Assembly: GCA_019914995.1 (NCBI GenBank)
Contig: CM034126.1
Location: 3,663,001-3,727,000, forward strand
Source: Acanthochlamys bracteata
Taxonomy: Eukaryota > Streptophyta > Magnoliopsida > Pandanales > Velloziaceae
DNA: 64,000 nt
Direction: 5' to 3'
In this document: positions 20,317 to 63,955 of the stretch, piece by piece
Position numbering within the stretch: position 1 is the first letter of the stretch
How the letters are laid out: each line of letters opens with the position of its first letter
Notes under the pieces: model-generated
The model's database searches: none
What the model saw: only the letters and a program-made list of their open reading frames with translations
Told to the model about the DNA's origin: nothing
Position numbers and translations under genes: made by a program

Positions 20317-20607
20317 CATGTTTCAAATGCTCGTAATTTCATTTTTTCGTCAGATTTTGAGTTCCGAACAGTTCATATGTTTCGATTACATAAAAAATTT
20401 AGAATTCCACTTTCATATACGGAATTTCGATTCTAACTTTTTTATTTACATACATTCTAATATAATTATATCTTTCAATTTTTGAAATATTTTTAAAAAT
20501 TATTGAAACACAAACACTAAATTTCACTTTCATTTTATTTTTTAAAAATTTTATTTCTTATCTTTTATTTTCACGAAACTCAATTACGGACATTTGAAAC
20601 ACGCTCT
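20317..20607. mobile_element. MITE, 291 bp (Tourist/PIF-Harbinger type?)
   Basis: The left end is ATGTTTCAAATGCTCGTAAT. The right end in reverse complement is GAGCGTGTTTCAAATGTCCG, followed by TAATTGAGTTTCG. The outer side at the right is TTA. The interior matches, in opposite orientation, the element at 23.26 kb, including a GAGTTCCGAA block. Non-coding. Confidence 0.6.
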
Positions 20608-23257
20608 TATAGACTTATAATCTGCATATAAAATGATCTTCAGCATCAGTTATTCCCTCAGCAAATAATCTCCATTATTGACTGTATCTACTAACATGCA
20701 CGTTAAACAACTGTATTACAAGTCGTTGCACATACATATTATATGTACCGTGTTTCTCATTGGTTTAACGAACTCGAACCAATCATAAGAGCATTAATTG
20801 TTAGCTACAAATATTGCATGCAAATAAAATTGTCTCTGAAAAGGTCATCACTACGTTGATGGCCAAATTAAGGCCATCGAAGAGATGATGAAAATGGACT
20901 TATGAGCGAGTGAAGGCCGTCCCCATTCGCTTTATTTCTATTGCTGCAAGTTTTTGACTCAAAAAAAAAAAAGGCTGAGCAGTCTCTTTCGGTTGTGAAG
21001 TAAGCAAAATTAAGTTGCAATGAAGAAATATTATTTTTGTTCATCGTTCACTTGACAGAGTGCTGAATGCTTGATGCATGCAACGTATTCAAGAAAGAAA
21101 GTGCGCAGTCACAAAATGAATTTTTCTGTGAAGCAATTCACCAAACACTTTGTATGCATAGAATTATGCACCTACTCCTGCCATTCCAAAACAACATTTG
21201 TTACGTTGTAATTCCGAATTGCGGACTTATCTCAGGGCGTGTTTTAGTTTTACCAAAATAGTTTCGCAAACTAAGCTGCTTAATAGTTTCAATCGCCACC
21301 AAAAAAAATTTTTCAAAATTTTAAATGTGATATTTTATATTTTTAATTATTATTTCGAATTTTATTTTTATTGAATTTTATTTTTTATTAAATTCTACTT
21401 TTATAAAACTTATTTTATAAAATTCAAACAAGCTCTAAGTGGTTTGGGAGTCGAATCCATTTGCTCCGAAGCAACTGAAACAATTTTTGTCAAATTCTGA
21501 CCAAAAAAAAATAAAGTTTCGTCAAATTAAAACACCAAGTTAGAGAAGAGAATTCAGGGAACTATAAACATCTATCTGTACATTGTCGTTTTCATGTTTT
21601 GTAAGACTTCCCAACAAGTCAGGAGCACTCGTATTATATTTCAATCATAGAGCAAAACGATCGAAGCATTCCATAAAGAACTGAACTATCAGTATCAACT
21701 ATCAACTTCACAATAGAAAGTAACTTACTTGAGGTTGCCTTCTTTTGCATACCGAAATTATTTATTAAAAAATTATATTTAATTTATTTTTTATTATAAA
21801 AAATATAAAAATTATTTTAATTTATTTTTTAATACAAAAAATAAATTATTTTTAAAAATATTATTTTTAATAATTTATTTTCAAGAACTCATTTTAAAAA
21901 AATTTATTTTCAAAACAAAAAAAAGCACCCTTAAATGGCCGTCCCGGAATTTATTTTTTGCGATTATATCATGTTTCATCGTATACTTAATTTTTGCTTA
22001 CAATATCATGTATATCCATCTCTCCATTATAAGGATGATGATATCAATCTCATAGCTAGTATCTTTGTAAACAATGCCATATTAATTCTACATATGTACC
22101 TACTAAGAACGTTATAACTAAACACCTGTATGGCAGGTTGTTGCATTTGTGTATTGTATCCTTATTGGCTTAACAAATATGATCCAACAATTAGGATATG
22201 TACATATTGCGCACGGCTATATGTACATCATCTCTTAAATAAACTTCAGTACATGAAAGCTTTAACTTCGACTCAACTATTAAATATGAATAATTATGAA
22301 TTAAATCATGCATCAATTTTTATTTAATTATTTAATCAAAATAAAAATTTTTTTTAGAGTATTATATTATTTTTATCATCTTAATTAAAAAATATAATAA
22401 ATATTAATTCGTGATTCAATTAAATTAAAATTTTATTAATATATTCTTAACTTATTGTTTTTATATCCAATATTAGAGTTCGAATCTAAAATTTTGTATC
22501 TATGAAATTGTGCTAATGTCTATTTAAAAATAATGTACATATGTATACTCACCCGTATATATTTGTTTTTTGGTATCAATATCACTACGATGATGACCAA
22601 CGGCCAAACGGGGACTTAGAATCTAAGTGATGGTCTTCCATCTCCGTTATTACTATTGGTGCATGAACTTCTTCTACTCAAGTCAATGTCTTTAAATCAA
22701 AACGAAAGCAAGTAGTAGTCATTTTCAGCTGTTATGCAAGCAAAACAAAAAAAGAATACAAAAATTCTTCTCTACGAATGTCCAAGTGACATTTATTTCC
22801 TCAAAGCAACGTTTCATGAGGTAATGGTTGTTGTATCTTCTAAATCTGGTTAAATCTTTAAATACGTAGCGTGTTAAGTGAATATTCGCTTTTCGAATAT
22901 TCTTCATAAGTTGATACGAAACCAGCGGGCAACTTAGATATTCCCCATCAAGTGCTCGATGAAAGCATGAGAAAATTTCCGCCACACTTTTTTTTTTATT
23001 TTTTGATTTGGGACGCATGCATACCTGGACAAGTTACCCTGTTTTTTTCCCTTAGATCTGGAAATAACATTTGGTAGTTACACTGATAAGGTTTGAACCC
23101 AAACATGTTGTCACTCCCTTCCATAAACATCTCATGTATAGTCAGTCAATCCACGACTAGTTTAGTAGTTCGTAGAAGATTTATTAGAAAATATAAAATA
23201 TTTATTAGAAATGGCTTACCGTTTGGCATTTGAAAAGTAATGCCAAATGTTTTCTAA

Positions 23258-23555
23258 GAGCGTGTTCAGATGACCATAACTGAATTTCGTAAAGTGAAAA
23301 GTAGGAAGTAAAATTTTTGAAAAAATAAAGTGAAATTGAAGTTCAGTATTTATATTTCAATAGGTTTTGAAAGTGTGTTAAAAATTAAAAAATATAATTA
23401 TATTAGAAAATATACAAATAAAAAAATTTAAACTGAAGTTCTGTATGTGGAAGTAGAATTCTGAGTTACTTGTGTAATTGAAATATATGAATTATTCGGA
23501 ACTCAAAATCTGCTCAAAAAAGATGGAGTTACGGGCGTTTGAAATACGCCCTAAG
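23258..23555. mobile_element. MITE, 298 bp, second copy of the same family
   Basis: The left end GAGCGTGTTCAGATGACCAT is preceded by TAA. The right end in reverse complement is GGGCGTATTTCAAACGCCCG and is also flanked by TAA. A TAA target duplication with GGGCGTRTT ends fits the PIF/Harbinger (Tourist) group. The interior matches the 20.3-kb copy inverted. Confidence 0.6.
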
Positions 23556-28090: not shown

Positions 28091-28552
28091 TAGAGAGACT
28101 TATTAATTAGCCTGAGCTCGCGCGGTACATGTTTGGAATTTGATTTCTCAATTAGGCTTTAATCATTGTTGGCATTGTTTGGTTTCACCATGTACCCAAA
28201 CTGTTGGTAATTGGCTAGTTAAGTTTGACAATATAGGGAAATGAATTAATTAGCTAGTTGTACAAAATTAGACAGAGATACAAGGAGAAGAACAAAGATA
28301 TTTCAACAATGTACCAACAGATAGGAATGGATCAAATAGAATCCTGGAATCAAAATAGCTCTTGAAAATTGGTACTGACTTTATGATAATTCAACAATGG
28401 GCCAATGGCAAAGAATAGCTACTTCAGACTTAACACTTCATTTCTCAAGAGCAACAGAAAATATAGTCACAATAGCTCGTCCAGATACACAAGGCCTTGT
28501 GATCAAGCTTGAAAATCTCCAGAATGATGTGTATGATCAAGGTGTATGACTG

Positions 28553-28894
28553 TTATGCTGGCTTTTCATAGGAGTTCTGGTCTCTGAATTCTGCAATTTT
28601 GCTCTTGATCATTTCACCTACATGAGGATTCACGAACATATGGGTGCTGTCAACCATTTGGATGATAAACTTCTGATTTTGAGGCAGGGAATCATTCAAG
28701 CTGACAATGAATTGTGCCATCGGGACATCACTGCAAATAACAGCAGTACCTTGAAGGCTTAATTGATGAAAGTTTTGCAGATACCAACAAAGGAAAAGAA
28801 CATCACACAACACTACAATGTTACAAGTTAGGAGAAGAAACATTAGACACTCAACTTACCAGGTGATGAATAGCCCTTTAATTGCATTGACCAT
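28553..28894 (-). CDS. TFB5: TFB5, smallest subunit of general transcription factor TFIIH
   Basis: TFB5 (GTF2H5/TTDA in human) stabilises TFIIH, which opens promoters and acts in nucleotide-excision repair. Exon 1 is 28894-28860, encoding MVNAIKGLFIT plus two bases. Exon 2 is 28730-28553, beginning with the T that completes Cys12 (TTTGCAG|T). The result is 70 aa, the usual length. Family blocks are clear: DVPMAQFIVSLNDS, QKFIIQMVDSTHMFV and the C-terminal EFRDQNSYEKPA. A splice acceptor (CTCGCAG|GTTTAG) lies just upstream of the ATG near 28921, so a 5'-UTR intron is likely. The first non-coding exon was not placed. Arm A of the cornichon inverted repeat starts about 500 bp upstream. Confidence 0.95.
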
Positions 28895-29400
28895 CTTGAA
28901 TCCTTAATGAGCTCTAAACCTGCGAGGTATGTGCGTTACGAAGTTCCAATGAGCAATAGAAATTCAGTAAGCAAAATGAAAAAAATTGTCATATATTATC
29001 AGGAAAATCTAAGACCACATAAGAACTTGCAGAAAAGAATATAGAAATATTGCTGGTTAACTTCATGGTTAGCGAGAAAATTATCAGGCAATTCTAATAT
29101 GAACTAGAGGAGATGCCAAGATGGCTTCGTTGGAAGTTCATGAAATAACGGGCAAAGAACTTATTAGTCTTAAATATCAGCAGTTTAATGGCATTATGCA
29201 GAAGATGTTGGTTTTGAATGGGAGTGTGAGTGGATCAAAGGTTTCTACAAAACAATTATTAGTAATAATTCAGTAAGCATGGACCTTATTTTATAACCAT
29301 CCAGCTAGAAGAGCAGTATAACAATGGCCGGTGAACATAAAATAGTTCCAAGGGTATTATGCTTTGCAAATTATGTGAAGCTCTAAAACAAGCTTCAACC

Positions 29401-30601
29401 AGCGTCCCTCACCCTCGGAATGGCCTTTGTGTCAAACCACAAAACAGGTTTAATATTGTGTTAGTCAACAAGAATGCTTTGCGCCCCAACTTTGTACATG
29501 ATTTTGGCACAACACAAGCTGAACATTCCCATGCTCAAGTTGAGCTTTACCTGGCTAAGTTGAACTTGTGCATGGGAGTTCCACTTGGGACGAGTTAAAA
29601 ATTTAACTCCAGCCTTGTAAAAGGTTTTATGGTCCTCTAGCATTACTTATCAACAATATAAGTAACCTAGAGAATTTCATATGACACCGTAATTTCATCT
29701 AAAGCCAGTATGATTCAAAGTAGATGCATTTACAATATACTTCAATTCCAAGTAGATAAAATTACTGCAATCCAACTTCACAATCTCGTTGCTCGTATGA
29801 TGGTCAAATTGCAGTAACTACATTGCGCAAGCTTGTTTTCATGACAATAAGTTGTAGTAGATCCCTAACCAACATGGATGAAGTTGTCTTTTCAATCTCA
29901 TATTTCTTACACTTTAATGAATATCCTAACTTTTCAAGAAAGAATTCCTTGGAAGTCCTAACCTTCAAACACATTATACAGCTTAGGTTCTTTCTCAATG
30001 AAAGAATACATACTTATTTCTTTTCTCTTTCCTTTAACCAAGTAACACATGAGAGGAATAGAAAGATGGGCAAACAAATGCTCAGGTGAAGAATGCGGTC
30101 AATGGTTGTCGATGGTTGCAGTGGCTATACATCAGCATAAATGCAAAACAGAAAATTTTTGTGATGTCTAGTGATAAAAGCATTAGAACAGTAAACAGAG
30201 AGACATAAATGCTCCAACAGAGCGAATCGAGCTAACCAGTACTACTAATCTCACGAGAGCAATGCGCAGCTCGCCAGGTGACTGATTGTAGACAACAAAC
30301 TTTTTGCCAAACAAAAGATTAATAACTACTTAAAAAAAAAATTCTATTTTAAGCATAAAAGTTTCAGGAGCTCTATACTTGATTCACCATCCAGGCATTG
30401 ACTGAGGAATTTCCTCAAACACCTTGACCGCATATAACGCTTATCATCGCATAGTCGAATCAGGCTAAATATTCAGTTTAAATAGATGTCGAATCTTCTC
30501 CGTCATTGTCTGATCTGATTTAATTTTCTACAGCTTATGTCATTGTCTGATCTGGAGTCAAACTTCATTAATGTTTATAACTTGGCTTCGCAAGTGAATC
30601 G
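29401..30601 (+). repeat. Arm A of a 1.2-kb inverted repeat (cornichon-derived)
   Basis: Matches the reverse complement of 31175-32381 over its whole length with few differences, about 95% by eye. The inner end (30534-30601) is a copy of the first 68 nt of cornichon exon 2 on the plus strand, with two mismatches. Positions 30471-30503 carry a minus-strand copy of 33 nt of exon 3. The outer boundary is at AGCGTCCCTC. It lies between the cornichon stop and TFB5. Confidence 0.95.
29521..29585 (+). repeat. Short imperfect hairpin inside arm A
   Basis: CCCATGCTCAAGTTGAGCTT is followed after a few bases by an imperfect inverted copy (AAGTTGAACTTGTGCATGGG). It forms a stem of about 22-28 bp with few mismatches and a small loop. 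The same structure is present in arm B near 32200-32265. Confidence 0.6.
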
Positions 30602-30630
30602 GTGAATGATAATGTGCACCGTCAAGGTGA

Positions 30631-33368
30631 TCAAATGGTGTACAACGACTCGCTGACAATATGCGAGTTGCCAGATGAGTGCCCGATTATGCTGGAAAAC
30701 GGGTAAGCTTGTTAGCATCAAAAAAATTAAAGATTAGCATTGTTTATCAAAATAGGAAGGATCCTAATTTTTACCCAAGCAAAGTAATGGAGAGCAGGAT
30801 GACCAAATAATTCAGTTTAAATAGACGTCGACTCTTCTCTGTCTTGAGGAGGTTAAAGATCTCAGTTATATCTATCAGATGTTGGCGGCAAAAGAATCTG
30901 TGGACAATAGCAAGCAATGAGAATTCATTTACAATCTTGGCATAAAAAGAAGCATGATTTCCAGTTCCTAACATTAATCAATCCTCTGACTCACTCACTG
31001 CTCACAAATATGTAAAATTAAGTGAACATGCTTGAAGAGATATGAGAAAAGAGCACTTACAATTTCAGATCATAGCAAAAAGTGGTAGCAGAGAAAACAA
31101 AGATCAACCAGTTTCCCGAAAAGAGATATACTATACTTAAGATTGCTTGTAGAGCGTATTCAGGTAAAATTAGGCGATTCACTTGCGAAGCCAAGTCATA
31201 AACATTAATGAAGTCTGACTCCAGATCAGACAATGACATAAGCTGCAACAAATTAAATCAGATCAGACAATGACAATAACAGAGAAGATTCGACGTCTAT
31301 TTAAACTGAATATTTAGCCTGATTCGACTATGCGATGATAAGCGTTATATGAGGACAAGGTGTTTGAGGAAATTCCTCAGTCAATGCCTAGATGGTAAAT
31401 CAAGTATAGAGCTCCTGAAACTTTTATGCTTAAAATAGGAAATTTTTTTTAAGTAATTATTAATCTTCTGCTTGGCAAAAATTTTGTTGTCTACAATCAG
31501 TCACCTGGCGAGCTGCGCATTGCTCTCATGAGATAAGTAGTACTGGTTAGCTCGATTCGTTCTGTTGGAGCATTTATGTCTCTCTGTTTGCTGTTCTAAT
31601 GCTTCTATCACTAGGCATCACAAAAATCTTCTGTTTTTGGCATTTATGCTGATGTATAGCCACTGCAACCATCGATTGCATTCTTCAACAAGAAACCTAA
31701 GCATTTGTTTGCCCATCTTTCTATTCCTCTCATGTGTTACTTGGTTAAAGGAAAGAGAAAAGAAATAAGTATGTATTCTTTCATTGAGAAAGAATCTAAG
31801 CTGTATAATGTGTTTCAAGGTTAGGGACTTCCAAGGAATTCTTTCTTGAAAAGTTAGGATATTCATTAAAGTGTAAGAAATACAAAATTGAAAAGACAAC
31901 TTCATCCATGTTGGTTAGGGATCTACTACAACTTAATGTCATGAAAACAAGCTTGCGCAATGTAGTTACTGCAATTTGACCATCATACGAACAACGAGGT
32001 TGTGAAGTTGGATTGCAGTAATTCCATCTACTTGGAATTGAAGTACATTGTAAATGCATCTATTTTGAATCATACTGGCTTCAGATGAAATCACGTGCCA
32101 TATGAAATTCTCTAGGATACTTATCTTGTTGATAAGTAATGCTAGAGAACCATAAAACCTTTACAAGGCTGGAGTTGAATTTTTAACTCGTCCCAAGCGG
32201 AACTCCCCATGCACAAGTTCAACTTAGCCATGTAAAGCTCAACTTGAGCATGGGAATGTTCAGCTTGTGTTGTGCCAAAATCATGTACAAAGTTGGGGCG
32301 CAAAGCATTCTTGTTGACTAATACAATATTAAACATGTTCTGTGGTTTGACACAAAGGCCATTCCGAGGGCGAGGGACGCTCAACTTCAGCCGCTAGGCT
32401 AGCTAGCATAAGAAGGTTGATCTGAGTTAAACTATGGCATGCAATATAGTGCCTTAAAGATGCTGAATATAGACAAAAAGTGAACCATGACCAGCGTAGA
32501 AAACTATCATCACAGGAACAAACAAACTCTAAACATTACCACCATGTTCATTTAATATTGCAAATGATTAAATAACCATGGTTCACTACTACAATCATGC
32601 TTGTAGATACGCAAGCATAATTGTTCTAGTTCTTTGGTCCTATTAGAGCATCAGTCTTCTACCAAGCGGGATACTACCCCAAAGTGCTGAGTTTCCTGCT
32701 ACTGATTTTAAAAGGAGAATAAACATATAGCTACATTTGTTTGAATTGCAACAATATGCATGAAGCCTGAGGGTGTTTGCTCATTTGTTATTCAAATTCT
32801 GCAAATTAAATTGTTAAACTTTCTAAACCTGTAAAACGTCTCGCAATTTATAATCCAAAGTTTCTCAACTATATTACAGTCAGTAATTTGTAGGCGATGC
32901 TAAGCATCTCGACAACATTCTAATGATTAATCATCAAGGCTTCATTCTTAAATAAACTGCTAAGAAGTAGCAAAATACAATTTTACATTTGGCTAATCGA
33001 TGAAGAAAAAGTCATACAAGTTTTGTGTTTGGGGATGCTTATCTAGCTAGCATACACAAAAGGGTTTCTATACAGTTCTGCGAACAAGAAAGTTGACAAA
33101 TTTCATTTCTCACCAGAAACTTAACAATTTCAATCATAAGTCATCGATACAAAACCAAAAGAGTAGAAGAGTTCCAGGATCAAAACCCAAAAAACTGCAA
33201 AATTCAATTCAAGAGGAAAAAAAAAACACAAACATATTCCCAAAATCTTACGTCGTTGTTCGAAAAAAGCATGGATGTCCGCAGGAAATATACCTGGAAA
33301 GCAAGAAGTATTCCGATTCCAATGGCGATGAAGAATGCCGCAATCAACAAGATCATCACCGAGCTCAT
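30631..33368 (-). CDS. CNIH: Cornichon homolog, ER export cargo receptor
   Basis: Cornichon proteins are small ER membrane cargo receptors working with COPII vesicles. Exon 1 (33368-33294) encodes MSSVMILLIAAFFIAIGIGI and LLAFQ, the first membrane segment. Exon 2 (31242-31061) carries the family block SLSDLESDFINVYDLASQVN and the next hydrophobic segments. Exon 3 (from 30897) has RQHLIDITEIFNLL and EKSRRLFKLNYLV. All joins keep frame. Exon 3 either stops at 30771 (127 aa) or is spliced at 30775 to a short exon 30691-30631 (TTTTCCAG acceptor, 146 aa, nearer the usual plant length). An in-frame TAA precedes the ATG. Intron 1 (about 2 kb) is largely one arm of an inverted repeat, whose partner begins 30 nt beyond the exon-4 stop. 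The identity is secure; the C-terminus is not. Confidence 0.88.
31175..32381 (-). repeat. Arm B of the inverted repeat (CNIH intron 1 and start of exon 2)
   Basis: Partner of 29401-30601 in opposite orientation. It contains the last 1.14 kb of CNIH intron 1, its splice acceptor, and the first 68 nt of exon 2. Positions 31279-31311 on the plus strand copy 33 nt of CNIH exon 3 with one mismatch. The 573-bp spacer (30602-31174) holds the rest of exon 2, exon 3 and the possible exon 4. Confidence 0.95.
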
Positions 33369-48758: not shown

Positions 48759-48836
48759 CTCGAGAAGCAGAGGGAAGAACAAAGAGTTTCTGTTGTTGGG
48801 TTTGGTTAACTGATTTTAGTGGTGGGTGTTGGAGAA

Positions 48837-51266
48837 ATGGCGAACTCAAGCACGACAACGGAGACGGCAACGGTGGTTGGAGTGGGGACAGAAGGGAATT
48901 CAGGAACACAAACGGCGACGGTTAGTCTGGGTCCAACGGCAACGGCAGCGATGGAAGATGCAGCTGCGAAGGTAGCTCACAAGAGATATGAAGCTTTGTT
49001 GACGGTGAAGAGTAAGGCGATCAAGGGAAAGGGAGCTTGGTATTGGGCACACCTTGAACCAATACTTGTTCCCAGTACCGATACTGGCCTTCCGAAAGCC
49101 GTCAAGCTCCGGTGTGCTCTCTGTGACGCTGTTTTCTCTGCTTCCAATCCATCTCGCACTGCTTCTGAACACTATAAGCGAGGAGCTTGCCCAAACTTTT
49201 CTGCTGTTGCCGGCGCCAGTTGCAATCCGTCTTCTTCTTCTTCTCCTGCTAGTGCTGGACCAAAGCCGCTTGCTTCCATCGCTCCTTGTAGCAGTGTTCC
49301 ACCATCTGCTCACCATCATCACCATCCTCACGGGGGCCGCCACTCTTCAAGCGGCCGGAAACGTTGTTCTTCTTTGACCGCAACGCCATCTCCACCTTAC
49401 AACGTGGCACCGTTGGCTTTGCTAGATCCTTTTTCTTCTTCATGTACTCCGCCGCAGCTTCCTGCACCACCAACGCCGCACCAACAACAGCTTGTATTGT
49501 CTGGAGGTAAAGAAGATTTGGGAGCTCTCGCTATGTTGGAAGATAGTGTGAAGAAGTTGAAGAGTCCCAAAGCTTCTCCTGGGCCTGTGCTCAGCAAAGC
49601 ACAGGCGGAGTCGGCGCTGTCGTTGCTGTCCGAGTGGGTGTACGACAGCTGCGCCGCCGTGTCTTTATCAGCTTTATCTCACCCAAAGTTCCGATCTTTT
49701 CTAAATCAAGTTGGTGTTCTCTCGGTCGGAGGTTATCTTCAGCCAAGAGAACTCACAGGAACTCGTCTCGAACTCCGTTTTCGAGAAGCTCGGCTTGCCT
49801 CAGACGCTCGGCTCCGTGATACTGCTTTCTTTCAGCTTGCCTCCCATGGTTGGAACGATTGCTCACACTCGCAATCTCAACACTCTATCATCACCATTGC
49901 TGCTAATCTCCCCAACGGCACAACAGTGTTCAGGAAATCGTTCTTCTCTTCTACCAACTCACCTCCGTCGAAGTACGCCCAAGAGATTCTCTGGGACGCC
50001 GCCGTTTCTTCTTTCCCAGGCAGCCCTCAACGGTGCGTCGGTATCGTTGCTGACAGGTTCAAGTCGAAAGCTTTGAAAGATCTTGAAAGTCAACATCACT
50101 GGCTTGTTAATCTTCCATGTCAACTTCAAGCTCTTCACCGTTTGCTTAAAGATTTCTGCCGTGATCTTCCTATGATACGCTCCGCCGCCGCCGCTTGCTC
50201 TCGGTTTGTTTCATTCTTCAATTCCAACCCCCGTGCACGGTCCCTTCTCCAAAAGTACCAACTTCAAGAGCTTGATCACTCAAGCCTTCTCTTCTCCCCC
50301 TTTGATTCCACAGACTCTGACTTAAATCCTGACACTGTATTCGCAATGCTTGATGACTTCTTGGGCAATGCCCGGCCGCTGCAGCTTGTCGCTCATGATG
50401 AAACATGTAACCTTCCACCCTTCGATGAGCCCAATGCGAGGGCAATAGCTGACCGGATTCGTGATGTTGGGTTTTGGACTGAGCTTGAGTCGGTCCACTC
50501 GTTGTTCAAGCTGCTAAGTTCCGTGGCCCGAGAGCTTGAGGCAGAACGGCCATTGGTTGGGCAATGCTTGCCATTGTGGGAGGACCTTCGTGCTAAGATC
50601 AGGGATTGGTGCAATAAGTACGATGTCGATCATGGTGCTGTGGAGATGGTCATTGATCGAAGGTTCAAGAAAAATTATCACCCTGCGTGGTCGGCTGCTT
50701 TCATTCTTGATCCTTTGTATTTAATCAAGGATTCCAGTGGCAAGTATCTACCGCCATTTAAGCTTCTTACGGTTGAGCAGCAGAAGGATGTTGACAACCT
50801 GGTTATGCGGCTTGTATCGCCAGAAGAAGCCCACATTGCTCTCAATGAGCTATTGAGGTGGAGGTCAGAAGGTCTAGACCCTGTGTACGCCCAAGCAGTT
50901 CAGGTGAAGCAGCTTGATCCTGCCACCGGCAAATTGAGGATTGCTAACCCACAAAGCAGTCGGCTTGTATGGGAAACTTGCTTGAGCGAATTCAAGTCAT
51001 TGGGGAAGGTAGCAGTGCGGTTAATTTTTCTACATGCTACTTCATGCGGGTTCAAGTGTAATAGTTCCCTACTTCGGTGGGTGACTGCACAGGGTCGGTC
51101 ACGTACAGCAGTGGACAGAGCTCAGAAGATTGTGTTTATTGCTGCACAGGCTAAGTTAGACCAGAGAGATTTCTCCAATGAAGAGGAGAAGGATGCAGAG
51201 CTGCTCGCAAACGAGGATGATGATGTGCTCACTACCGAGGCATTTGGAGACGCCCCATCAGTGTAA
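48837..51266 (+). CDS. hAT-transposase-derived BED-finger protein (At1g12380/At1g62870-like)
   Basis: Intronless, 809 aa from the first ATG at 48837; the open frame extends 6 codons further up but only to GTG. Residues about 45-120 form a BED-type finger: Cys93-x2-Cys96, His112 and Cys118, with AWYWAHL before it. Residues 121 to about 250 are Ser/Pro/His-rich, including a His run. The rest follows the hAT RNase-H-like fold: LLSEWVYDSCAAVSLSALSH, GTTVFRKSFFSS, then GIVADRFKSKALKDL, where the Asp aligns with a hAT catalytic Asp. The following PCxxHCL motif of active hAT proteins is changed to PCQLQALHRLLKDF. The tail is acidic. No terminal inverted repeats were noticed around it. It looks like a domesticated, probably non-transposing nuclear protein similar, from memory, to At1g12380. 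Confidence 0.85.
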   Translation: MANSSTTTETATVVGVGTEGNSGTQTATVSLGPTATAAMEDAAAKVAHKRYEALLTVKSKAIKGKGAWYWAHLEPILVPSTDTGLPKAVKLRCALCDAVFSASNPSRTASEHYKRGACPNFSAVAGASCNPSSSSSPASAGPKPLASIAPCSSVPPSAHHHHHPHGGRHSSSGRKRCSSLTATPSPPYNVAPLALLDPFSSSCTPPQLPAPPTPHQQQLVLSGGKEDLGALAMLEDSVKKLKSPKASPGPVLSKAQAESALSLLSEWVYDSCAAVSLSALSHPKFRSFLNQVGVLSVGGYLQPRELTGTRLELRFREARLASDARLRDTAFFQLASHGWNDCSHSQSQHSIITIAANLPNGTTVFRKSFFSSTNSPPSKYAQEILWDAAVSSFPGSPQRCVGIVADRFKSKALKDLESQHHWLVNLPCQLQALHRLLKDFCRDLPMIRSAAAACSRFVSFFNSNPRARSLLQKYQLQELDHSSLLFSPFDSTDSDLNPDTVFAMLDDFLGNARPLQLVAHDETCNLPPFDEPNARAIADRIRDVGFWTELESVHSLFKLLSSVARELEAERPLVGQCLPLWEDLRAKIRDWCNKYDVDHGAVEMVIDRRFKKNYHPAWSAAFILDPLYLIKDSSGKYLPPFKLLTVEQQKDVDNLVMRLVSPEEAHIALNELLRWRSEGLDPVYAQAVQVKQLDPATGKLRIANPQSSRLVWETCLSEFKSLGKVAVRLIFLHATSCGFKCNSSLLRWVTAQGRSRTAVDRAQKIVFIAAQAKLDQRDFSNEEEKDAELLANEDDDVLTTEAFGDAPSV

Positions 51267-61042: not shown

Positions 61043-63955
61043 CTATAAAGGTTGGAGCTCTGGGGTTGACCAAAGCTTGACTTTCTTGTCAACACCAGCA
61101 GTGCCTAGAACAAATGCAGGTTCACCCCCTGTGGAAACAATTAGTGAGAAGAAATTGTTAAACACAAGCACAAGAAGGTACAACAGCGCCAGATGCATGG
61201 TAAAAACACTTGCCAAATAGTATGTCATTGAATTTTCTTATTACCTAGCTTCAGATGCATGGTAAAAACACTTGCTCAATAGTATGTCATTGAATTTTCT
61301 TATTACCTAGCTTCAGATGCACTGTAAAAATTTGCTCAATAGTACATCATTGAATTCTCTCATCCCTGCCTAGTTCTTTGTGTTCCATTCACTTCAAATG
61401 TTTACTAAATTGTGTTAAGTGGTATGATCTGTAGAATTATCAGTTTATGCCAGAGTTAGTCATTTTTTCTATTTCTTGAGAATTGTCAGTACAACAGTCT
61501 CCAACTTTTTTCTTTATAACTACTGATATTTCAAACGGTAGCCTCCGAGACCTTAAGAATGTAAAATGCACAACAGAAAGCAGCCCACCACATCTCATTT
61601 ATGTAGAGGTGGCAATTTGAATTGTTGGACCAATTTCGGATCGAACCATTTAATAACCGAATCAAGTTCGTTCAACTATAACCCAACCTATAAATTTATA
61701 CCTGTCAAAATTGTCAATCATATTCAACCTATTAATAACCGAATCAAATTCGAATCGACCCATCTAATAATTAAATTAATTTTTAATTCTATATTTTAAA
61801 GCTTCAACGAATTTATAATATCAAATTGTAATAAAAATGGACGATGTTCTTAAAATAAATACCCATAACAAATGTGCTTTCTTTAATATCTTTATCGGTC
61901 CTTAAGATATTAAAAAAAATTATTTTTATTTTTTGAAAAAGTGTGTTAACAGTTGAAATTTTATAATATATATATATATACTAGTAATTTCGATAAAAAT
62001 TTTGATAAATATAACTATCTAACAAAATTTTGATAAAAATATTTATACAAAATTCAAATTCTTCATTACAGAAACACCTACATAGTAATACTTTCGATAA
62101 TATTATAACTCTCATCTTACACTATTTTACTAAGATATAAAAATAACGATTAATTATAAATACCATATAATTTAATAATTTATAAATTATTTTTATCGAT
62201 TATTTGTATTGCTAATATTTTAATAAACGGAAAGAAAAATCAAATATTATTTCTTCAAAAAATGACACTTCGGATTAGTGCGTCAATTTCGAATTAACAC
62301 GAATCGACCCATTTAATAACCGGATCAAATTCGCTCAACCCTAACCCAACCCATATATTTATACATGTCAACTCTTAACCCTAATTAGATAGATCGGTTT
62401 CGGATTGTGTTTTCGTATCAGATCATATATTGCCACTCATGGGTGCCAAGTGTCAATTTTGTTCAGAGAAATCACGATCTATGTCATTGTAAACAGAGGG
62501 GTCCAATAAAATAGAATCGTGAATAGAAATAACAAATGATTACGTTGATAACCCATTGGTATGCAGTTGGGTGTCCAAGCAATGCCAGTAATGTCACCTG
62601 TATAACAACGATAATTAGTCTCAAAATAGTTTATTTCATCATGATTTGGGAAGAGGGATCAAACCTTCATGTGCTTTATCAGCAGTATCCAAGACACTCC
62701 CAGTTTCGGTGCACAACCATTGCAATGTAGAACCAGATACAGCTGCCAAAACTTTCCCATCTGGAGAGATGCTGAGATGGTCATATTGCATAGCAGAGCC
62801 TCTTGCATCAAGAAGTGGAATCTGGAAGACTTTTAAGGTCTTAGGGTCCTCATCAAGATGGTAACGAACTGATGGAAACAAGACGACCAAAATAAAACTC
62901 AGATATTAAACCCGTCAATATTGTGTGGAAATGTGAGTAATTTAATAGCGACACTGTAATTAAAAGCCTGGTGCAATAATGATGAATAAAGTAGTCAGCC
63001 AAACTGTCATATGACGGAGTATGGGTTGTGAAAGACATTCACCACAAACTACTATGATAGTATGTTAAGATCCTAGTACAGACTATGGAAGTTTGACTTA
63101 TAACCAGCACACAGGTTAACTACTGTAAGAATTGTAGATGACCTTTATGAGATGGTAGGACATTCACTATGACTAAAGCTGCTGCAAGATCTCTCCCAAA
63201 TTTCCTGGCACTACATTTCTTCAACATCAACCCTAGCATGAAAAGTTGCAGCAGAACTGCCGCTATGACAATTAAGTAGGCAAGGCAAAAGAAAATTTAT
63301 TGCGGTGTCATGGAAAGGAAATCTTTAGAATTGTAGCGACTAGCCTATCAACATCATATTCTATAAAAGCCACGATCGCAGAAAAAAAGAGGTAAAACAG
63401 TCGCTTAACAAAGTTGCATGAATTAGGAAAGGAACTATAAGTTGCACAGAATTATGAAAGGAACTATAAATACATGGAGTACTAGATAACTGCCATGTTA
63501 CATTAGAAGATACTATTGAAAAGCATGTAAGTTCACAATCACATAACAGGATGGGACTATTTCATTGATAATATTTTCTTCATCCGTACTCAAACATGCA
63601 TTTCTATAAGCTGTAAGAAGGAATCAAAGTGTCCCTTGTGACAGGCTATACTGGTCTAAAATTATGACCACTTTTAGTCCATGAGTTTTTTACAATTATA
63701 TGCATCAACAAAAACCTACCACATAACAAAAATCGTTTTAAGAAGAGCAGGCAGAAATAAAGAAAAATCCTGATGACCAAAGTTCTAGCAGTATACTAAT
63801 CTGAGAGGACGAATAAGATAGAATGAAGCCTTGCCGTATATATAACTTATTTATTAGTACTTACCCTTGATATTCCAAATGCGAATTGAACCATCTTTGG
63901 ATGCTGTAATGACCTGCTCTGAGTTGGGCAAGAAGCATAATGAAGTAACTGCACT
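61043..63955 (-). CDS. WD40 (TBL2-type) protein, C-terminal part only
   Basis: The partial gene runs off the right edge. Exons on the minus strand: 63955-63865, 62868-62665, 62597-62553 and 61128-61043, all phase-compatible with GT/AG borders. Exon 1 of this set reads AVTSLCFLPNSEQVITASKD then GSIRIWNIK, a WD40 blade. The second reads YDHLSISPDGKVLAAVSGST then LQWLCTETGSVLDTADKAHE. The last reads VLGTAGVDKKVKLW and stops after STPELQPL at 61043. The set gives 141 residues. The order of blades and the DTADKAH and AGVDKKVKLW blocks fit plant transducin-beta-like (TBL2) proteins; those are probably ER-associated, but the N-terminus that would show this is outside the window. Confidence 0.85.
61191..61373. 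repeat. Tandem repeat, three units of about 62 bp, in a WD40 intron
   Basis: Units start with AGATGCA(T/C)GGTAAAAA at 61191, 61253 and 61315. The first two are nearly identical; the third has a small deletion and substitutions. The array begins about 60 bp from the last coding exon. Confidence 0.95.
61605..62440. mobile_element. DNA element, about 836 bp, with TGGCAAT ends
   Basis: The left end is AGAGGTGGCAATTTGAATTG. The right end in reverse complement is ATGAGTGGCAATATATGATC. Subterminal repeats of CGACCCATYTAATAA and CCGRATCAAATTCG occur on both sides. There is no coding capacity. This type of GGTGGCAAT element is widespread in plants. It lies in the last intron of the WD40 gene. Confidence 0.5.

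Follow-up and report, generated by a model that had tools for sequence, protein, structure and literature searches.

An inverted copy of its own intron end and exon start behind the stop codon of a cornichon gene in Acanthochlamys bracteata: a possible source of small RNAs

Gene-derived inverted duplications are a proposed origin of new small-RNA loci, and natural inverted gene duplications that feed small interfering RNAs (siRNAs) are of a kind already known. The locus described here is a cornichon (CNIH) gene of Acanthochlamys bracteata in which the end of intron 1, its acceptor and the start of exon 2 recur in inverted orientation behind the stop codon, with the other exons as the loop. It lies in a window of 64,000 nucleotides, the whole stretch of DNA that was analysed (contig C1, CM034126.1, positions 3663001-3727000), within a genome whose 557 contigs total 195.5 Mb. 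Proto-MIRNA loci, which according to Allen et al. in 2004 reportedly stem from inverted duplication of coding genes, are said to be similar in that they are young inverted gene duplications with near-perfect arms. In the cornichon locus, by contrast, the arms are for the most part intron, and the loop contains the source gene itself.

Several described systems can be set beside this locus. In Arabidopsis Cvi-0, the inverted repeats VIM4-VIM2 and PAI4-PAI1 both make siRNAs (PMC13213937). VIM4-VIM2 resembles the cornichon locus in that protein-coding sequence is inverted across a short spacer; it is also transcribed across, and its siRNAs act on genes. However, its arms are formed by two homologous genes with 50 bp between them, and the siRNAs act both in cis and in trans on VIM1 (PMC13213937), whereas the cornichon arms are drawn from the intron and exon start of a single gene, the loop holds its other exons, and no paralog is similar enough. 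Among gene-near inverted repeats of Arabidopsis, about 486 of 634 make 24-nt siRNAs (review PMC12595863). Like the cornichon repeat, those of Arce et al. (2023, via PMC12595863) lie beside or within genes, with 24-nt siRNAs and an effect on chromatin expected; about 68% of them are said to derive from transposable elements (PMC12595863), whereas the cornichon repeat consists of the gene's own sequence.

Mu killer of maize is likewise a partial inverted gene duplication, comprising about 1.3 kb of mudrA, for which a foldback RNA has been proposed; in contrast to the cornichon case, it silences a transposon in trans (PMC3440606). IR71 forms a long intramolecular duplex that is cut by the Dicer-like (DCL) enzymes DCL2, DCL3 and DCL4, with DCL1 contributing; its duplex is much longer, at about 3 kb, and the available part of the report does not describe it as belonging to an active coding gene (PMC12825306). 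Sirtrons, finally, are intronic regions rich in siRNAs (PMC5260113). The likeness is that siRNAs would derive from intron sequence of the host gene, arm B being mostly intron; the difference is that arm A is not intronic but follows the stop codon. The known inverted-duplication examples compared from the literature involve gene pairs or transposons, whereas the cornichon case concerns a single intact gene. An arrangement in which a gene has the end of its intron, the acceptor and the beginning of the next exon inverted behind its stop, with the other exons as loop, was not met in literature searches that were not exhaustive and only partly aimed at it. In such a gene, source, target and precursor of small RNAs would be one and the same transcript.

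The gene is intact: four exons on the minus strand specify 146 codons and a stop, and all three introns are GT-AG. The Pfam Cornichon profile (PF03311) matches with 107.6 bits against a cut-off of 29.2, over positions 2-121 of 122; the nearest solved relatives by sequence, found with a query one residue short, are yeast ERV14 (65.9 bits) and cornichon homolog 1 (29.7 bits). A family profile search returned 9 matched stretches and led to five cornichon loci in the genome. The repeat-bearing gene is the most diverged of these, with 37-44% identity to the other four, which form two pairs of 90% identity (C3/C5 and C19/C20). Synonymous sites are saturated against all four paralogs, and the proportion of nonsynonymous differences (pN, 0.34-0.38) is below that of synonymous ones (pS, 0.74-0.86). 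The junctions of exons 1-2 and 2-3 are the same as in all four paralogs, and that of exons 3-4 is the same as in C3 and C5, the two paralogs modelled to their end. Intron 2 measures 163 nt here, compared with 1194-2757 nt in the paralogs. A tblastn match of exon 4 to L016:5414-5461 was considered as a paralogous exon 4 and judged to be due to chance, because in C3 and C5 the exon ending LIWSVLEDD lies 75-77 nt beyond exon 3.

The coordinates of the arms and of other features are collected in Table 1. The two arms match at 93.56% identity over 1212 BLAST columns, which confirms to the base the near-identical inverted arms that the initial annotation had reported; in a global alignment, 51 substitutions (38 transitions and 13 transversions) fall among 1189 aligned bases, and 30 columns are gaps. 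The further statement of that annotation, by which arm B comprises intron 1 and the start of exon 2, and the loop most of exon 2 together with exon 3 and a possible exon 4, is refined by the exon model; arm B takes up the last 1139 nt of intron 1, which measures 2051 nt, and 68 of the 182 nt of exon 2. What had been offered as a possible exon 4 begins at the junction used by exon 4 in C3 and C5, and encodes another C-terminus, longer than and unlike theirs. Arm A had been placed immediately past the stop; it does adjoin the end of the gene, but at a distance of 29 nt, which is close to the claim. Within the limits of the assembly, this geometry is certain.

Table 1. Features of the repeat-bearing cornichon gene and its neighbour, numbered from the first nucleotide of the window
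Feature	Position	Strand	Description
Arm A	29401..30601	+	Inverted copy of arm B; begins 29 nt past the CNIH stop
Exon 2 copy in arm A	30534..30601	+	First 68 nt of exon 2; antisense to exon 2 as CNIH 3′ untranslated region (UTR); 68/68 pairs, two G.U
Loop	30602..31174	-	573 nt; from exon 2 (its other 114 nt) through intron 2 (163 nt), exon 3, intron 3 (83 nt) and exon 4 to 29 nt beyond the stop
Arm B	31175..32381	-	Last 1139 nt of intron 1 (31243-32381) and first 68 nt of exon 2 (31175-31242); contains the intron 1 acceptor
CNIH exon 1	33294..33368	-	75 nt, ends CAG|GT; junction matched in 4/4 paralogs
CNIH exon 2	31061..31242	-	182 nt; Pfam Cornichon
CNIH exon 3	30775..30897	-	123 nt
CNIH exon 4	30631..30691	-	Includes stop codon; C-terminus unlike the short LIWSVLEDD end of C3 and C5
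Antisense exon 3 fragment in intron 1 (arm B)	31279..31315	+	About 37 nt; arm A counterpart 30467-30508; source exon 3 30805-30842
Direct duplicate of exon 2 in intron 1	31259..31275	-	17 nt; source 31222-31238
TFB5 (TFIIH subunit)	28553-28894	-	Pfam 72.1 bits; ATG at 28894; next gene, same strand, head-to-tail behind the repeat

The differences between the arms are scattered along their whole length, and similarity stops at all four arm boundaries. Perfect runs of at least 21 nt common to both arms number 19 and total 784 nt. Long, near-perfect inverted arms around a short spacer, a trait of endogenous inverted-repeat siRNA loci, are therefore present at the cornichon locus. The Kimura two-parameter (K2P) divergence of 0.044 places the duplication at 3-15 million years ago under assumed rates of 7e-9 to 1.5e-9. 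For comparison, 20 random 10-kb loci (the first 20 of 100 stretches drawn from six contigs, falling on five of them) were combined with the window into a background sample of 264 kb. Apart from the cornichon arms, no inverted pair of at least 300 bp was found there by BLAST (expectation value, E, 1e-5; spacer below 9 kb); the next-longest span 293 columns at 79.5%, within the window, and 290 columns at 73.4%, the latter self-overlapping. The cornichon inverted repeat is far beyond chance.

In the whole 195.5-Mb genome, a search that passes over very common words and gives scores to none but the best candidates matched the arms to each other; besides this it returned a 94-bp stretch of contig C2 at 78% identity and 38 bp within exon 3 of the gene itself, and no further copy of the arms was found. 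A stretch of about 100 bp near the outer arm ends (32214-32310), with internal partial palindromes, has the single other match found in the genome at C2:8380208 (78%) and is perhaps the relic of an old element. The more diverged second inverted pair of the window, that of 293 columns, occupies 20321-20609 and 23255-23544.

The sequence holds some indications of how the repeat arose. In the exonic part of arm A, two codons that specify aspartate (D) in exon 2, as they do in all five CNIH genes, have turned to asparagine (N); as far as this part is concerned, arm A therefore looks like the derived copy. Directly before exon 2, intron 1 contains an antisense piece of exon 3 and then a 17-nt direct repeat of exon 2, and the antisense exon 3 piece is present in both arms; a patchwork of this kind may be the trace of copying with template jumps. 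In base composition, the intronic part of arm B stands apart from intron 1 elsewhere. On the sense strand its skew is -0.010 for T over A and -0.052 for G over C, compared with +0.118 to +0.150 and +0.079 to +0.162, respectively, in intron 1 of the four paralogs and in the gene's own 5′ part of intron 1. All ten 900-nt windows of arm B, which overlap heavily, fall below all 131 windows from paralog intron 1 in both skews, although the G-C margin is narrow with respect to C3 (highest arm B window -0.027, lowest C3 window -0.024). With the skew of intron 1 lacking in arm B, most of the arm may have entered the intron late, before the duplication.

The substitutions between the arms also permit a test of strand, applicable to any inverted repeat from its sequence, which asks whether the repeat is transcribed or kept paired. 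If inverted arms start out identical, each base on a given strand of arm A is opposed by its complement on that strand of arm B; with strand-symmetric mutation, transitions that keep pairing as G.U and transitions that break it should then be equally frequent in the RNA of one strand. In cornichon-sense RNA, 28 transitions keep pairing and 10 break it (p=0.0051 against a 50:50 null). The ratio is 28:10 in four of six alignment settings and 30:12 and 27:10 in the others, with p between 0.0051 and 0.0079; leaving out the exonic part gives 26:10 (p 0.011). Twelve of 30 inverted-pair rows from the 264-kb sample served as controls, hand-chosen with self-overlapping rows left out, some sharing an arm, and short and more diverged than the case; one of the 12 has p<0.05 (9:1, p 0.021), followed by 6:15 (p 0.078). 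Together they sum to 82:80, which says little since the strand is arbitrary in each. The bias singles out the cornichon strand in both arms. This suggests, if indirectly, that transcription on that strand covers both arms, which is judged rather probable.

Little read-through would be needed for this, since arm A begins so close to the stop codon, and for the same reason the cornichon 3′ UTR very likely enters arm A. Folding was predicted as minimum-energy structures only, for assumed 3′ ends at 30560, 30525, 30480, 30400 and 30200 and a guessed 72-nt 5′ UTR. With the ends at 30525, 30480, 30400 and 30200, all 68 exon 2 bases of the spliced mRNA that belong to the arm are predicted to pair with the 3′ UTR; with the end at 30560, it is 42 of 68, comprising all of the copy then included. 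Folded in isolation, the 68-nt duplex of exon 2 and 3′ UTR has no unpaired base, and both arm differences become G.U pairs. For unspliced RNA running through arm A, RNAfold predicts that 1164 of the 1207 bases of arm B pair with arm A and that the intron 1 acceptor lies inside the stem, in agreement with the initial annotation, according to which a read-through transcript would fold into a duplex of roughly 1.2 kb. In addition to that unspliced duplex, the models indicate that a duplex can also form in spliced mRNA, between exon 2 and the 3′ UTR.

Taken together, the locus is best read as a young gene-derived inverted duplication that feeds DCL enzymes in cis, a reading held tentatively and at somewhat below an even chance. 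A local inverted duplication would have copied the 3′ part of intron 1 and the first 68 nt of exon 2 to a site 29 nt past the gene's own stop. Cornichon transcripts would then very likely run into this inverted copy. Spliced mRNA could then form the 68-nt duplex, and RNA that retains the intron and crosses arm A could form a near-perfect hairpin of about 1.2 kb with the acceptor of intron 1 buried in it. Most likely, part of this RNA would be diced into siRNAs of 21-24 nt, which would dampen or methylate the cornichon gene in cis. That siRNAs arise from the arms is considered an even call; a regulatory effect on the cornichon gene is thought rather unlikely. In a still bolder and quite improbable version, the gene would be self-limiting, its transcript being a substrate for its own silencing and the outcome depending on which comes first, the splicing of intron 1 or the synthesis of arm A. 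If intron 1 were spliced promptly, mRNA with the 68-nt stem only would result; slow splicing would give a buried acceptor and a 1.2-kb Dicer substrate. In this version, the bias towards G.U would be a mark of selection for maintained pairing in RNA of the cornichon strand.

A number of observations weigh against silencing. The strand test was devised after the counts had been seen, and concerns a single locus. If C-to-T change is assumed to dominate, the transitions divide between the arms as 17:6 (p 0.035) and 11:4 (p 0.12). Moreover, mutation that accompanies transcription, with C turning to T and A to G in the sense strand, explains the bias as well as selection for pairing does; both predict it, and selection is therefore not demonstrated. 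Such an asymmetry is plausible at this locus because intron 1 of the four paralogs, and its 5′ part here, carry the T and G excess described above; in intron 2 of the paralogs the T excess is present, but there is little G excess (-0.039 to +0.037). Among arm differences of the C-to-T type, 5 of 46 CG, 6 of 63 CHG and 27 of 344 CHH sites are affected, with no significant enrichment at CG or CHG (p 0.57 and 0.43; low power, indirect), and for this reason no trace of heavy methylation is apparent in the arms. At 0.57 and 0.53, the CpG observed/expected ratios of the arms are similar to those of their surroundings in the gene (loop 0.57, remainder of intron 1 0.55), although they stay under the 0.67 of the complete window. 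No AATAAA occurs on the cornichon strand in 28401-30660; ATTAAA, at 30524, 29918, 29454, 29189 and 28882, is uninformative. The four modelled paralogs offer no silencing target, the longest exact match being 11 nt. Mu killer calls for caution, too: antisense read-through from flanking genes was proposed there and then reported to be disproved, with short antisense transcripts accompanying silencing (PMC3440606).

The repeat may instead be a structural relic that has no regulatory effect, with intron 1 spliced before arm A is made, the long hairpin rare and the 68-nt stem tolerated, while the gene works, or decays for other reasons; this is quite possible, although doubted on balance. It would fit with the lack of a significant methylation footprint, with a reading frame and splice sites that have stayed intact since the duplication, and with the position of the gene as the most diverged of the five cornichon loci. 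The acceptor is also transcribed 642 nt ahead of arm A, which leaves time for splicing. Yet with arm A only 29 nt past the stop, even spliced mRNA would keep the antisense sequence, except with a very short 3′ UTR, and the 28:10 bias suggests sustained transcription over both arms, though this is compatible with no effect. Pairing might also act on splicing and not on silencing, by masking the acceptor or looping out exon 2, and lead to intron retention, to skipping of exon 2 or to circular RNA through back-splicing of exons 2-3. The predicted stem does contain the acceptor of intron 1; in a fold that omits arm A, the antisense exon 3 piece in intron 1 pairs over 36 of 37 nt with exon 3 and loops out exon 2; and complementary flanking sequence is reported to promote circularisation (PMC6769675, PMC8516420). 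Arm A, however, lies beyond the last exon and not in a flanking intron, and the acceptor would sit hidden in the stem. This alternative is deemed improbable.

It is more improbable still that the arms are two opposite copies of one mobile element, for example a pair of miniature inverted-repeat transposable elements (MITEs). The match of about 100 bp at the outer arm ends to C2:8380208, and the missing intron 1 skew in arm B, by which part of the arm may have reached the intron late, would suit such an origin. But the arms contain the start of exon 2 with its acceptor, which already speaks against an account in terms of a whole element, and the genome search, which skips very common words, found no multi-copy family for them. 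No target-site duplication is evident by eye at the arm ends in the sequence and the printed junctions, and scans of 9 of the 15 listed open reading frames gave no Pfam match above the curated cut-offs, the weak hits to Wzz (E 0.069) and YecU (E 0.025) being far below. Inverted repeats are also classic assembly traps, and the geometry might be due to an inverted chimera of reads or haplotypes. This artefact is the least probable of all explanations and is disfavoured because the 51 substitutions and several indels are scattered over the arms, whose similarity is bounded at each of their four ends, unlike in a simple inverted chimera; nor was a second copy of the region found elsewhere in the genome.

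Action in trans on paralogs, which the initial annotation had envisaged in addition to action in cis, finds no support. Paralog coding sequences used for the comparison were complete for C3 and C5 and comprised exons 1-3 for C19 and C20, whose exon 4 was not modelled. On either strand, the longest exact match to the arms is 11 nt in C3 and C5 and 10 nt in C19 and C20, compared with 71 nt in the gene itself. Judged by these sequences, effects in trans are unlikely. The same annotation had spoken of a housekeeping gene, a status that is unproven for the most diverged of the five loci.

Behind the repeat follows TFB5, the only match to this family found in the genome. Its ATG is separated from arm A by 506 nt. 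The distance from the cornichon stop to this ATG is 1736 nt, and would be 535 nt if arm A were taken out; arm A has therefore probably displaced the former 3′ end of the cornichon gene. Methylation spreading from the repeat, or read-through, could reach the TFB5 promoter. No Rfam family matches anywhere in the window at gathering thresholds. Its gene content, with weak matches to ACT-domain families named after plants among others, fits a plant genome, and an open frame of 818 aa on the plus strand (48810-51266) has no Pfam match at E 0.001. A tandem array at 61190-61360 consists of 2.8 copies of a 62-bp unit with 90% matches.

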